A DNA stretch of 64,000 bases from Agromyces sp. H17E-10. Lineage in GTDB: Bacteria > Actinomycetota > Actinomycetes > Actinomycetales > Microbacteriaceae. Shown here piece after piece: positions 57,198 through 61,213 of the stretch. The stretch's first letter is position 1; each line of letters opens with the position of its first letter. The notes under the pieces are model-generated. The model worked only from the letters and a program-made list of their open reading frames with translations, ran no database searches and was not told the origin of the DNA. The stretch covers positions 2,976,001-3,040,000 of the forward strand of contig NZ_CP095042.1 in assembly GCF_022919715.1 (NCBI RefSeq), in the 5' to 3' direction. Position numbers and translations under genes: made by a program.

Positions 57198-57227
57198 TTG
57201 CGTGCCACCGAGCAATGGCTCTAGTCT
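57198..57227 (+). promoter_or_regulatory. Promoter of the ABC exporter leader
   Basis: TTGCGT (57198-57203), an 18-nt spacer and TAGTCT (57222-57227) form a good -35/-10 pair. Transcription would start near 57234, giving a leader of about 290 nt before the first exporter gene, unlike the leaderless genes elsewhere in the window. Confidence 0.62.
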
Positions 57228-57295
57228 GTAAGGCTGGCCGCGCTGCCCTACCGTGCGGCCACGAGGGTTCGAGACGACGACGCCAGGAGGACACC

Positions 57296-57382
57296 ATGCA
57301 GACAGACATCAACGCCCGCCCCGCGGCCGGTGGTGCTGCCCGCACCCGATCCCCGCTCGTCGAGGCAGTGCTCGCCGGGTAG
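57296..57382 (+). CDS. 28-codon leader peptide upstream of the ABC exporter
   Basis: Short open frame MQTDINARPAAGG...SPLVEAVLAG ending in TAG. It has the best ribosome-binding site in the region (AGGAGG at 57285-57290, 5-nt spacer), stronger than that of the exporter itself. The stop codon lies 15 nt before a hairpin arm that can pair with either of two downstream segments. I see no homology to a functional protein. The arrangement points to a regulatory leader peptide that senses translation. Confidence 0.65.
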   Translation: MQTDINARPAAGGAARTRSPLVEAVLAG

Positions 57383-57396
57383 CGCGCGCACCACGC

Positions 57397-57516
57397 CCGC
57401 AGGCTCCGCCTGCGCAACCCCGCGGCCCGGCCGCGCATCGACGCCGAGTGCGTCGCGACCTTCATTCTCAGCCGTCGAGGCTCGTCCCTAGAGCCTGCGG
57501 CACCCCTCTCGAGAGG
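57397..57516 (+). promoter_or_regulatory. Candidate attenuator with mutually exclusive hairpins
   Basis: Segment A CCGCAGGCTC (57397-57406) can pair locally, 7 bp, with GCCTGCG (57408-57414), or over its full 10 nt with GAGCCTGCGG (57491-57500). Next to the latter, CCTCTCGAGAGG (57505-57516) is self-complementary and contains the GAGAGG ribosome site of the TTG-started exporter gene, so it can hide it. A further CGCGGC/GCCGCG stem lies at 57421-57435. A ribosome halted near the leader stop codon would cover segment A and change the fold. Confidence 0.6.
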
Positions 57517-57524
57517 ACACGGCT

Positions 57525-59411
57525 TTGTCCGTACAGCCCACATCCGGCGACCGCGACCCGAACCGCGTCGGCGCGGTTCGCGCGCTCTGGCGCCTGCGCG
57601 AGTACGCGGGACCCGCGATGCCGGCGTTCATCGCGAGCATGGCGGCGGCGCTCGTCGCGCAGCTGATCGCGCTCACCATCCCGCAGGTGTTCGAGCAGAT
57701 CGTCGACGGCCCGCTCGCCGACGGCGACGCCTCGGCGATCGTGCCGCTCGCCGTGCTCGTGTTCGTGCTCGGCGCGGCCGAGTCGCTGCTCTACGCGCTG
57801 CGTCGCTGGCTCGTCGTCGGCCCCGGAACGCGGGTCGAGGCGCGCATGCGCAACGCGCTCTACGCGAAGCTGCAGGACCTGCCCGTGAGCTTCCACGACC
57901 GGTGGCCGAGCGGGCAGCTGCTGTCCCGCGCAGTGAGCGACCTCAGCCTCATCCGGCGGTGGCTCAGCTTCGGCCTCGTGCTCACGGGCGCCAACGTCGT
58001 CATCATCGTGGTCGGCGTCGGCATCCTCATGTCGATGAACTGGATGCTGGGACTCATCTTCCTCGTCTGCTCGCTGCCGCTCTGGTGGGCGGGCTGGCGC
58101 TTCGAGGGTCGCTACTCCGAGCAGTCGCGCCTCAGCCAGGACCAGCAGGGCGACCTCGCGACCGCCGTCGAGGAGTCGGTGCACGGCATCCGGGTGCTCA
58201 AGGCCTTCGGTCGCGGCAAGTTCGCGTTGTCGAGCTTCCGGGCGCAGGCCGAGTCGCTGCGGTCGACCGAGATCGAGAAGGCGCGCCTCGACGCGAACAT
58301 CTGGGTGTGGATCATGGTCGTGCCGACCGTGGCGCTCGCGCTCTGCCTCGTCGTCGGCATCTGGCTCGCCGCGAACGGCCAGCTCTCGGTCGGCGAGCTC
58401 GTCGCGTTCTTCGCGACGGCGACGGTGCTCGCGTGGCCGATCGAGTCGATCGGCTTCATGCTCGCGTTCGCGCTCGACGCCCGCACCGCGACCGACCGCT
58501 TCTTCGACATCATCGACTCGGAGAACACGATCGTCGACCCCGCCGACCCGAAGCACCTCGAGCGGCCGCGCGGCGAGCTCGCGTTCGAGGGCGTGCACTT
58601 CCGCTACCAGGACTCGCCCGAGCGCTTCGGCGACCTGCTCGACGGCGTCGACCTCGTCGTCGAACCGGGCGAGACGATGGCGCTCGTCGGACTCACCGGC
58701 TGCGGCAAGACGACGATGACCGCGCTCACGACGCGCCTGTACGACGTGACCGGCGGCTCGGTGACGATCGACGGCGTCGACGTGCGCGCCTTCACGCGCG
58801 AGGAGCTTCGCCGGCACGTCGCGATGGCGTTCGAGGATGCGACGCTCTTCAGTGCCTCGGTGCGCGAGAACGTGCTGCTCGGCCGCCCCGAGCTCACGGG
58901 CGACGCCGCCGACGACCCCGCGGTGCGCGCCGAGGCCGAGCGCGTGCTCGACGAGGCGCTGCGCATCGCGCAGGCGGCCTTCGCGTACGACCTGCCCGAG
59001 GGCGTCGACACGAAGGTCGGCGAAGAGGGCATGAGCCTCTCGGGCGGTCAGCGGCAGCGGCTCGCGCTCGCGCGCGCCGTCGCGGCCAAGCCCGCCGTGC
59101 TCGTGCTCGACGACCCGCTGTCGGCGCTCGACGTCGCGACCGAGGCGAAGGTCGAGGCCGAGCTGCGCTCGGTGCTCGCCGACACCACGGCGCTCATCGT
59201 CGCGCACCGCCCCTCGACGGTCATGCTCGCCGACCGGGTGGCGCTCCTCGAGGCCGGCCGGGTGACCGCGGTCGGCACCCACTCCGAGCTCCTCCGCGAG
59301 AGCGAGCACTACCGCTTCGTCATCTCCAGCCTGGAGGACGAGGAGCGCCGTCACGGCGGGGGCGATGCCGACGGAGCATCCGAATTCGAACGAGAGGAGG
59401 CCGCATCATGA
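57525..59411 (+). CDS. ABC exporter half-transporter with a degenerate ATP site (multidrug type)
   Basis: 628 residues: six membrane helices in the N-terminal half (starting [21 protein letters not shown]) fused to an ATPase domain. Walker A is LTGCGKTT and the signature [14 protein letters not shown] is canonical. Walker B reads [12 protein letters not shown], with Asp where the catalytic Glu is normally found, so this subunit forms a non-hydrolytic site. That is the hallmark of heterodimeric exporters such as BmrC/BmrD, LmrC/LmrD or TM287/288. TTG start at 57525 with GAGAGG 8 nt upstream. The downstream half-transporter overlaps by ATGA. The substrate may be a drug or lipid. Confidence 0.88.
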
Positions 59412-61213
59412 GCGTCACCGGCGTGCAGGGCGAAGAGCGCGAACAGTACTCGAAGGCCGAGTCCCGGCACATCCGCATCCGGTCGCGGCGGCTGCTGGGC
59501 TCGCTCCTGAAGCCGCTCACGGGCAAGCTGTGGCTGACCGCGGCCGCGGTCGTCGTGTCCTCGGCGGCCCAGGTGGCCGGCCCGGCGATCATCGCGTACG
59601 GCATCGACCAGGGCATCCCGGCGCTCATCGAGCAGAACTGGTGGCCGGCGGCCTTCGCAGGTCTCGCCTACCTCGTGACGGGTCTCATCGGGGCGTTCCT
59701 CATCTCGGCGTACATCCGGCTGTCGGCGCGCGTCGCGCAGGCGGTGCTCATCGACCTGCGCACGCGCGTGTTCCTGCACACGCAGAAGCTGTCGCTCGAG
59801 TTCCACGAGACGTACACCTCCGGTCGCATCATCTCGCGGCAGACGAGCGACCTCGACGCGATCCGCGAACTCATGGACGAGGGGCTCACGCTGCTCGTGC
59901 GCGGCCTCATGTACATGGTCTTCACCGCGATCATGCTGTTCGTCATCGACGCGCCGTCGGGGTTCGTGCTGCTCGTCGCGCTCATCCCGCTCGGCATGCT
60001 CACGCGGTGGTTCCAGGTGCGGTCGCAGACGCTGTTCCGGCGTTCGCGCGTGGCCAGTGCGAAGCTCATCGTGCAGTTCGTCGAGACCATGACGGGCATC
60101 CGCGCCGTGCAGGCGTTCCGCAAGGAGCGTCGCAACGAGCGCGAGTTCGGCGGCCTCGTCGAGGACTACCGCGACGTGAACTCGAAGGTGCTCGGCCTGT
60201 TCGTCGTGTTCAACCCGGGACTCGCGCTCATCGGCAACACGGCGGTCGCGGTGACGATCGTGCTCGGCGGCTTCCGGATCATCGACGGCTCGCTCGAGGT
60301 CGGCGTGCTGCTCGCGGCGGTGCTGTACACGAAGCGGTTCTTCGACCCCATGGAAGACCTCGCGATGTTCTACAACGGCTACCAGTCGGCCTCGTCGGCG
60401 CTCGAGAAGATCTCGGGCGTGCTCGAGGAGCAGCCGAGCGTGCCCGACCCCGCGCACCCCGTCGACCTCTGGAAGGCCGAGGGCCGGGTGCGGTTCGACG
60501 GCGTCGAGTTCTCGTACGTCGAGGGACGCAGCATCCTGCCCCGGTTCGATCTCGACATCCCCGCGGGGCAGACGATCGCGCTCGTCGGGTCGACGGGTGC
60601 CGGCAAGTCGACCCTCGCGAAGCTCATCGCCCGGTTCTACGACCCGAGCGAGGGCACGGTGTCGCTCGACGGCGTCTCGCTCGCCGACCTGCACCCGAAG
60701 GACCTGCGCCGCGCGATCGTGATGGTCACGCAGGAGGCGTACCTGTTCTCGGGCTCGGTCGCCGACAACATCGCGCTCGGCAAGCCCGACGCGACGAGCG
60801 ACGAGATCGTGCGCGCGGCCATGGCGGTCGGCGCGCACGAGTTCATCGAGGGGCTGCCGAACGGCTACGACACCGACGTGAACAAGCGCGGCGGCCGGGT
60901 GAGCGCGGGTCAGCGCCAGCTGATCTCGTTCGCGCGGGCGTTCCTCGCGAACCCGGCGGTGCTCATCCTCGACGAGGCGACGAGCTCGCTCGACATCCCG
61001 AGCGAGCGCCTCGTGCAGGAGGGCCTCACGAAGCTGCTCGCCGACCGCACCGCGATCATCATCGCGCACCGCCTCTCGACCGTCGCGATCGCCGACCGGG
61101 TGCTCGTCATGGAGCACGGCCGCATCGTCGAGGACGGCGCACCCGCCGACCTCATCGGCGGCGAGGGCCGGTTCGCGGCGCTGCACGCGGCCTGGCGCGA
61201 CTCGCTCGTCTGA
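59408..61213 (+). CDS. ABC exporter half-transporter, catalytic partner
   Basis: 601 residues: six membrane helices ([20 protein letters not shown] marks the first loop) plus an ATPase domain. Walker [11 protein letters not shown]-loop [12 protein letters not shown], signature [14 protein letters not shown] (LSGGQ is altered to VSAGQ), Walker [13 protein letters not shown] with the catalytic Glu, and H-loop IIAHRLSTV. The Glu here and the canonical LSGGQ of the partner combine into the one active ATP site of the heterodimer. The coupled start overlaps the first subunit's stop codon. Confidence 0.92.

Follow-up and report, generated by a model that had tools for sequence, protein, structure and literature searches.

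A conserved UAG-ending leader ORF upstream of a heterodimeric ABC exporter operon in Agromyces and other Microbacteriaceae: a candidate ribosome-sensing leader

The usual marks of a regulatory leader are a sensing peptide or alternative hairpins. In attenuation of the erm/cat type, RNA structure masks the downstream ribosome site, and a ribosome stalled on the leader exposes it. In tnaC of Escherichia coli, which has a conserved sensing peptide, regulation depends on release at the stop codon of the leader, and the stop is followed by a Rho site. For BmrB-BmrC-BmrD of Bacillus subtilis, translation of the leader is reported to be required for antibiotic induction of the exporter, with an intrinsic terminator inside the bmrB coding region and alternative stem-loops (PMC4191407). 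The toiL uORF of topAI in E. coli is described as sensing several ribosome-targeting drugs; Rho-dependent termination inside topAI was proposed and tested, and toiL pairs with the topAI ribosome site (PMC12121999). Among actinobacteria, the whiB7 uORF, which precedes drug-resistance functions, is reported to respond to translation stress (PMC12121999, PMC13236596), and one of these sources treats whiB7 as a transcription-attenuation locus (PMC13236596).

Here we describe a leader ORF ahead of an exporter operon in Agromyces sp. H17E-10. The window is the whole stretch of DNA analysed, 64,000 nucleotides of contig NZ_CP095042.1; positions below are those of the window and all features lie on the + strand. 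The first-pass annotation had proposed a promoter, a short ORF with a strong ribosome site, alternative RNA pairings and a palindrome around the exporter Shine-Dalgarno (SD) sequence, all of which were found by direct reading of the window sequence at the positions it had named. No earlier description of the leader was found among the matches listed in the open-licence literature. Rfam gave four matches in the window region, all below the gathering score, and none in seven relatives.

The exporter operon, its relatives and its promoter

The operon downstream of the leader encodes two ABC exporter halves, subunits A and B. Subunit A (57525..59411, TTG start) matches Pfam ABC_membrane and ABC_tran and has a degenerate Walker-B segment; subunit B (59408..61213) overlaps it by 4 nt and has a canonical Walker-B segment. 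The usual catalytic Glu after Walker B is absent from subunit A, and subunit B is canonical. Subunit A matches both chains of 3qf4 (TM_0288 and its partner), among other exporters. Two half-transporters, one of them without the catalytic Glu after Walker B, make this a heterodimeric ABC exporter.

Of 199 Microbacteriaceae genomes sampled, 168 were found to encode an ortholog of subunit A, as were 72 of 85 genera, and in a scan of named genomes the closest relatives of the exporter belonged to Agromyces (Microbacteriaceae). Upstream regions were taken from 130 of the 168 matching genomes (30 loci and 100 regions) and from 53 of the 63 loci of the named scan, leaving out eight distant ABC proteins (L093-L100) and two loci with too little upstream DNA (L086 and L091). 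Three exact duplicates were removed. Twenty extra Agromyces regions were chosen by the promoter motif; all 20 precede the exporter, and two of them were removed. The final set comprised 180 distinct loci and 18 further Agromyces rows, ie 198 rows. L088 is from Arthrobacter and L090 from a bin labelled Acidobacteria. The L090 contig carries both exporter and leader, falls inside the Microbacteriaceae branch of the exporter tree and is probably mis-binned.

The window promoter consists of a -35 box TTGCGT (57198..57203) and, after an 18-nt spacer, a -10 box TAGTCT (57222-57227), which opens a conserved discriminator and initial region, TAGTCTGTAAGGCTG (57222..57236). A sigma-70 scanner reported no promoter in the window region. 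The promoter at 57198-57227, which it missed, is of a type, TTGC-N20-TAnnCTGnARGGCTG, kept ahead of the exporter gene in 154 of the 180 loci, and the promoter postulated upstream of the leader is thus conserved in relatives. These rows were selected by a pattern covering the -10 box and the GGCT part; the pattern did not include the TTGC box, the A in position 8 or the pyrimidines that follow GGCTG, and the TTGC-N20-TA register is kept in the logo of the 154 loci. A WhiB7-like AT-rich stretch upstream of the -35 box was considered; the logo has only a weak excess of A at -33/-32. Since the promoter is kept where the 5'UTR is short or almost absent (L129, L200), it is independent of the leader. 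One tree branch, L059, L067 and L075-L079 (Rhodoluna-like and related), has the promoter with short 5'UTRs and no leader.

The promoter 15-mer occurs exactly once in the genome of the window and one or more times in 23 of 25 Agromyces genomes; 15 genomes of other families have no exact match. A regulon sharing the element was considered and rejected; those of the other matches that were inspected had no TTGC box and lay, as far as judged by eye, at unrelated genes. The GnARGGCTG discriminator (window 57222-57236 and orthologs) is locus-specific and weakly palindromic. A similar element, TAGACTGGAGGGCTG, lies upstream of a gene resembling, by eye, an ABC-F ATPase (L110, from the window's own genome, with one mismatch, and L256, L257 and L258); it is followed by a short TGCCnnTCGGCA repeat and has no TTGC box. 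In two Agromyces genomes (L259, L260), TAGCCTGGAAGGCTG is found upstream of a gene resembling, by eye, a GNAT acetyltransferase.

Initiation signals, peptide and stop codon of the leader

In the window, a leader SD, AGGAGG (57285..57290), is followed after five bases by the ATG (57296) of a 28-codon ORF, MQTDINARPAAGGAARTRSPLVEAVLAG (57296..57382), which ends in TAG (57380..57382). Its occurrence in relatives was scored by a strict rule: GGAGG, 4-6 nt, ATG or GTG, 12-60 codons and, where a promoter was found, a position 25-140 nt past the -10 box. A leader was present in 133 of the 198 rows (128 when identical leaders are counted once), made up of 98 of 109 long-UTR loci, all 18 extra Agromyces rows and, among the 26 loci lacking the promoter pattern, 17 that were judged by a looser position rule. 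None was found in the 45 short-UTR loci, where there is little room for one. Two loci with weak SDs (L016 and L024) and one with a very long UTR (L054) were counted as leader-absent. Shuffled long UTRs gave a mean of 0.1 leaders in 109, and the reverse strand gave four. All 42 Agromyces rows have the leader, 20 of the 42 having been picked by the promoter motif.

The best-conserved features of the leader are its initiation signals. Spacing between SD and start is 5 nt in 123 of 133 leaders, the full AGGAGG is found in 94, and 132 start with ATG. The first codons are A-rich in phase, with codons 2-4 A-rich. The strong ribosome site first noticed ahead of the 28-codon ORF belongs to a leader conserved in relatives. 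The position of the stop, which the first-pass annotation had expected to be conserved, is not; lengths run from 14 to 59 aa (25-36 codons in 101 of 133) and it is the stop codon, not its position, that is kept. Of 47 orthologs found in other families of the order, 20 were examined; none of these 20 has the promoter or a GGAGG-led leader (at 4-6 nt), and seven have loosely SD-preceded short ORFs. Mapped on a tree of 88 exporters, leaders occur throughout the family, with 11 changes, seven of them forced by well-supported branches, although some of the 'absent' labels are misses of the strict rule. Having been gained or lost repeatedly, the leader is not indispensable. Taken together, the comparison supports a leader ORF that is real and old in Microbacteriaceae.

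The peptide itself appears free of constraint. In 84 pairs of same-length leaders (72-98.5% identical, and not independent of one another) dN/dS was 1.16 in the leader frame, compared with 0.81 and 0.85 in the other two frames. The stop codon behaves differently: it is TAG in 105 leaders, TGA in 16 and TAA in 12 (n = 133), or 100, 16 and 12 among the 128 distinct leaders. After collapse to 50 clusters the counts are TAG 37, TGA 10 and TAA 3, and the TAG stop is found at 26 different leader lengths.

Stop usage elsewhere at these loci leans to TGA. Of the exporter-A genes at 84 loci, 78 have TGA as their stop, three TAG and three TAA; for the window genes, as delimited by a rough caller, the counts are TGA 30, TAG 10 and TAA 2. 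The first stops in the +2 frame of the leader regions are TGA 57, TAG 10 and TAA 9, and the next in-frame stops beyond the leader are TGA 44, TAA 5 and TAG 4; the +1 frame is uninformative, because most stops there are the TGA inside ATGA. The ratio of TAG to TAA was 105:12 at the leader stops and 16:16 among downstream trinucleotides in any frame (Fisher P = 3e-6). Apart from the stop codon there is no strongly conserved base around the leader stop, and the UAG is therefore not part of a longer motif. At 30 trpE loci, taken for comparison of stop codons, W-rich short ORFs lay upstream in three, none of them with an SD. UAG is read by RF1 only (PMC9348620) and the share of RF2 is high in GC-rich bacteria (PMC4989110). 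From the codon counts we infer selection for RF1-only release at the leader UAG. What appears new, judging from these sequences, is an unconstrained peptide with a UAG stop nevertheless kept, ahead of exporter genes which end mostly in UGA. Kept start signals and a kept UAG, with amino acids that drift, point to a switch that senses ribosomes and not to a functional peptide.

RNA structure and composition beyond the stop

Just past the stop, 31 of 36 Agromyces leaders have a hairpin of at least 6 bp, compared with 9.2 expected from shuffles; its median start lies 15 nt beyond the stop codon. In the window it is H1 (57398..57414), in which 57398-57404 pair with 57408-57414 over 7 bp, beginning 15 nt past the stop. 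Outside Agromyces the hairpin is weaker (36 of 92, 16.7 expected). Compensatory changes were seen at five of the six H1 pairs among 12 distinct rows. The pair count was restricted to 22 of the 36 distinct Agromyces leaders, in which the loop has 3 nt and the stem 6 bp or more; it leans towards pairing because the rows were chosen for the hairpin; of its five measures, two were reached by 22 and 29 of 500 shuffles and three by none. Local folding energy in Agromyces at +8..+40 is -3.37 kcal/mol beyond shuffles. The window fold also contains H2 (CGCGGC/GCCGCG, 57421..57435), and extra local stability occurs in Agromyces at +32..+64. Further hairpin excesses lie at +50..+90 in Agromyces (20 of 36, 6.9 expected) and at +80..+120 in other genera (29 of 92, 14.7 expected), so H1 is the strongest structured place and not the only one. 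Consensus folding of 35 post-stop regions from Agromyces, aligned with MAFFT, yielded no pairs, the alignment being gappy, and hairpin-wise tests were used in its place.

The alternative helices of the first-pass annotation fared unevenly. The hairpin just past the stop is kept in Agromyces, as the counts and compensatory changes above show. The second pairing is not. In the window, segment A (57397..57406) is the exact reverse complement of 57491-57500, an inverted repeat which, taken alone, is weak evidence; one equally long occurred in 22 of 500 shuffles of the 142-nt stretch. Among 21 Agromyces loci the pairing is found in the window only, the partner sequence being absent from the other 20. 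Across 36 Agromyces leaders, downstream complementarity exceeds shuffles by 0.42 bp (se 0.18) for the 5' arm of H1 and 0.23 bp (se 0.11) for the 3' arm, an excess which includes the window's own 10 bp; within the leader the arms have no excess. The palindrome CCTCTCGAGAGG (57505..57516) around the exporter SD is likewise restricted, occurring in the window and L038 only, 2 of 21. Folding of the whole leader RNA of the window gives no clear gain over shuffles (z -1.23; equalled by 13 of 100).

Between the leader stop and the exporter lies an untranslated stretch, C-rich and G-poor in composition and a possible Rho loading region (57383..57524). In the window, the first 120 nt past the stop have C 0.45 and G 0.30. 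Across the leaders the figures are C 0.473 and G 0.286 at 0-60 nt (C above G in 123 of 128) and C 0.438 and G 0.255 at 60-120 nt (127 of 128), and C 0.331 and G 0.354 in the 5'UTR ahead of the leader; the C-rich, G-poor RNA begins inside the leader. The upstream regions of 19 window genes, exporter included, have mean C 0.356 and G 0.348, and one other window gene has an equally strong bias upstream (C minus G 0.18). C minus G is 0.194 in lineages with the leader, 0.116 in short UTRs without it and 0.080 in other families. C also exceeds G in 31 of 35 short UTRs without a leader, and in the first 60 nt of the exporter match in 109 of 114. The bias is compatible with Rho loading.

A scan for intrinsic terminators found none in the window region, and 5 of 115 relatives have a terminator-like signal in the interval from the leader stop to the exporter; the sequences do not support a conserved intrinsic terminator. 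An exporter start could be assigned for 69 of the 115 leaders, and in these the exporter SD is no more hidden than it is behind shuffled upstream sequence; predicted accessibility lies above that of shuffles by +0.045 (se 0.036) in 22 Agromyces and +0.058 (se 0.026) in 47 others.

Proposed mechanism, rival readings and known systems

Conservation of the leader ORF and of the promoter upstream of it makes a ribosome-mediated leader of the heterodimeric exporter the best class of explanation. To that extent the original reading as a ribosome-mediated attenuator holds; its alternative pairing is not conserved, and no conserved intrinsic terminator or burial of the SD was found. We see an even chance that a ribosome-sensing, cis-acting leader controls the exporter operon through premature termination of the Rho type. 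Such a mechanism builds on what the comparison supplies, namely the leader, its SD, the UAG, H1 in Agromyces and the C>G bias. The first signal on the mRNA made from the conserved promoter would be a near-perfect ribosome site, placed on a short UAG-ending ORF. The peptide would be irrelevant; ribosomes would load, travel some 25-36 codons and be released at the UAG, about 15 nt before a small hairpin followed by the C-rich, G-poor untranslated stretch. With normal reading and release, the exposed RNA would favour an early end to transcription, most likely brought about by Rho, leaving the exporter low. If a drug, or slow RF1-dependent release, delayed or arrested a ribosome within the leader or at the UAG, termination would be hindered and RNA polymerase could read through into the exporter. 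We infer that Rho takes part, which way the response runs, that translation inhibitors induce the exporter and that the UAG acts through slow release.

The stop codon itself may be the sensor, a proposal we make tentatively and expect, on balance, to be wrong. A peptide-independent leader would then be selected for RF1-only termination at UAG, and the exporter operon would read the speed of RF1 release, or the time for which a drug holds the ribosome, at one fixed place, with H1 just past the terminating ribosome and the Rho loading region behind it. If the UAG is functional, this is a leader whose key letter is the choice of release factor.

Several other readings were weighed against Rho-type termination. 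In an attenuator of the BmrB/trp type, mutually exclusive hairpins and one intrinsic terminator would be chosen by the position of the leader ribosome. The window has the makings of this, in that segment A can pair with either 57408-57414 or, over 10 nt, 57491-57500, but the second pairing is confined to one Agromyces locus of 21, the H1 arms have at most a slight downstream excess, and terminator-like signals are as rare as 5 in 115 relatives, with none in the window region; we consider it very unlikely, and on the terminator and arm results the intrinsic-terminator form was rejected. Somewhat less remote, though still improbable, is translational attenuation of the erm/cat type, with the exporter SD hidden by RNA structure until the leader ribosome stalls. 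CCTCTCGAGAGG can fold over the window SD and similar pyrimidine-purine repeats are seen by eye at the SD of several relatives, but the exact palindrome occurs at two loci of 21 and accessibility lies slightly above, not below, shuffles in the 69 of 115 loci, on which result SD burial was rejected. That the leader encodes a functional microprotein, such as a small exporter subunit, is hardly credible: the position of the ORF is conserved and its N-terminus is often MTxT or MQTD, but dN/dS is about 1, lengths span 14-59 aa, three leaders had no Pfam match and the window leader no NCBIfam match. It was rejected on the dN/dS of 1.16.

The leader might instead be a constitutive element, whose strong 5' ribosome site protects or boosts the mRNA and whose UAG is merely a clean stop. 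Initiation signals as the best-conserved features and a freely varying peptide agree with this, which we nevertheless find rather doubtful, as it leaves unexplained the preference for UAG over UAA, H1, and the long C-rich gap before the exporter. A little more room must be given to control at the promoter, possible though still on the unlikely side, in which TAnnCTGnARGGCTG would be the operator of a putative regulator and the leader secondary; it is compatible with Rho-type termination at the leader. As the discriminator is conserved also where there is no leader, a DNA-binding regulator could be the main control. The element is present in 154 of 180 loci, including those with 5'UTRs of a few bases, and has no second exact match in the window's genome. 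Its left half, however, follows the -10 consensus and varies where a palindrome would be fixed, and the leader is left unexplained.

The exporter leader keeps its ribosome site and its UAG, to which Agromyces adds a hairpin at a fixed distance; neither a sensing peptide nor alternative hairpins are conserved. It is a candidate route by which environmental actinobacteria may switch on a drug exporter. The likeness to tnaC lies in release at the stop codon and a Rho site past the stop, both present in tnaC and both proposed for the exporter leader; unlike tnaC, the exporter leader ends in UAG and has a freely varying peptide. Of the known systems, BmrBCD and toiL come closest in regulatory logic (PMC4191407, PMC12121999). 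In BmrBCD, as in Agromyces, a heterodimeric multidrug ABC exporter operon has a short translated ORF immediately ahead of it (PMC4191407). Antibiotic induction that needs leader translation is reported for BmrBCD and proposed only for the Agromyces locus, which, unlike BmrBCD, is without a conserved intrinsic terminator, conserved alternative stems or visible constraint on the peptide (PMC4191407). Lacking these structural hallmarks, the Agromyces-type leader is not classed with BmrBCD, though it may well work alike. Like whiB7, it is an actinobacterial uORF ahead of a drug-resistance function (PMC12121999, PMC13236596); whiB7 is a transcription factor gene treated as an attenuation locus, whereas the exporter leader has no conserved intrinsic terminator (PMC13236596). 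From toiL it differs in having no conserved burial of the exporter ribosome site and a long C-rich leader ahead of the gene, and it would resemble toiL in Rho-dependent termination as the outcome, tested for toiL and proposed for the Agromyces leader (PMC12121999). In its architecture, a uORF with strong initiation signals ahead of C-rich, G-poor RNA that has no conserved intrinsic terminator, the Agromyces-type leader matches the toiL/tnaC kind, a milder C bias being present also where there is no leader.
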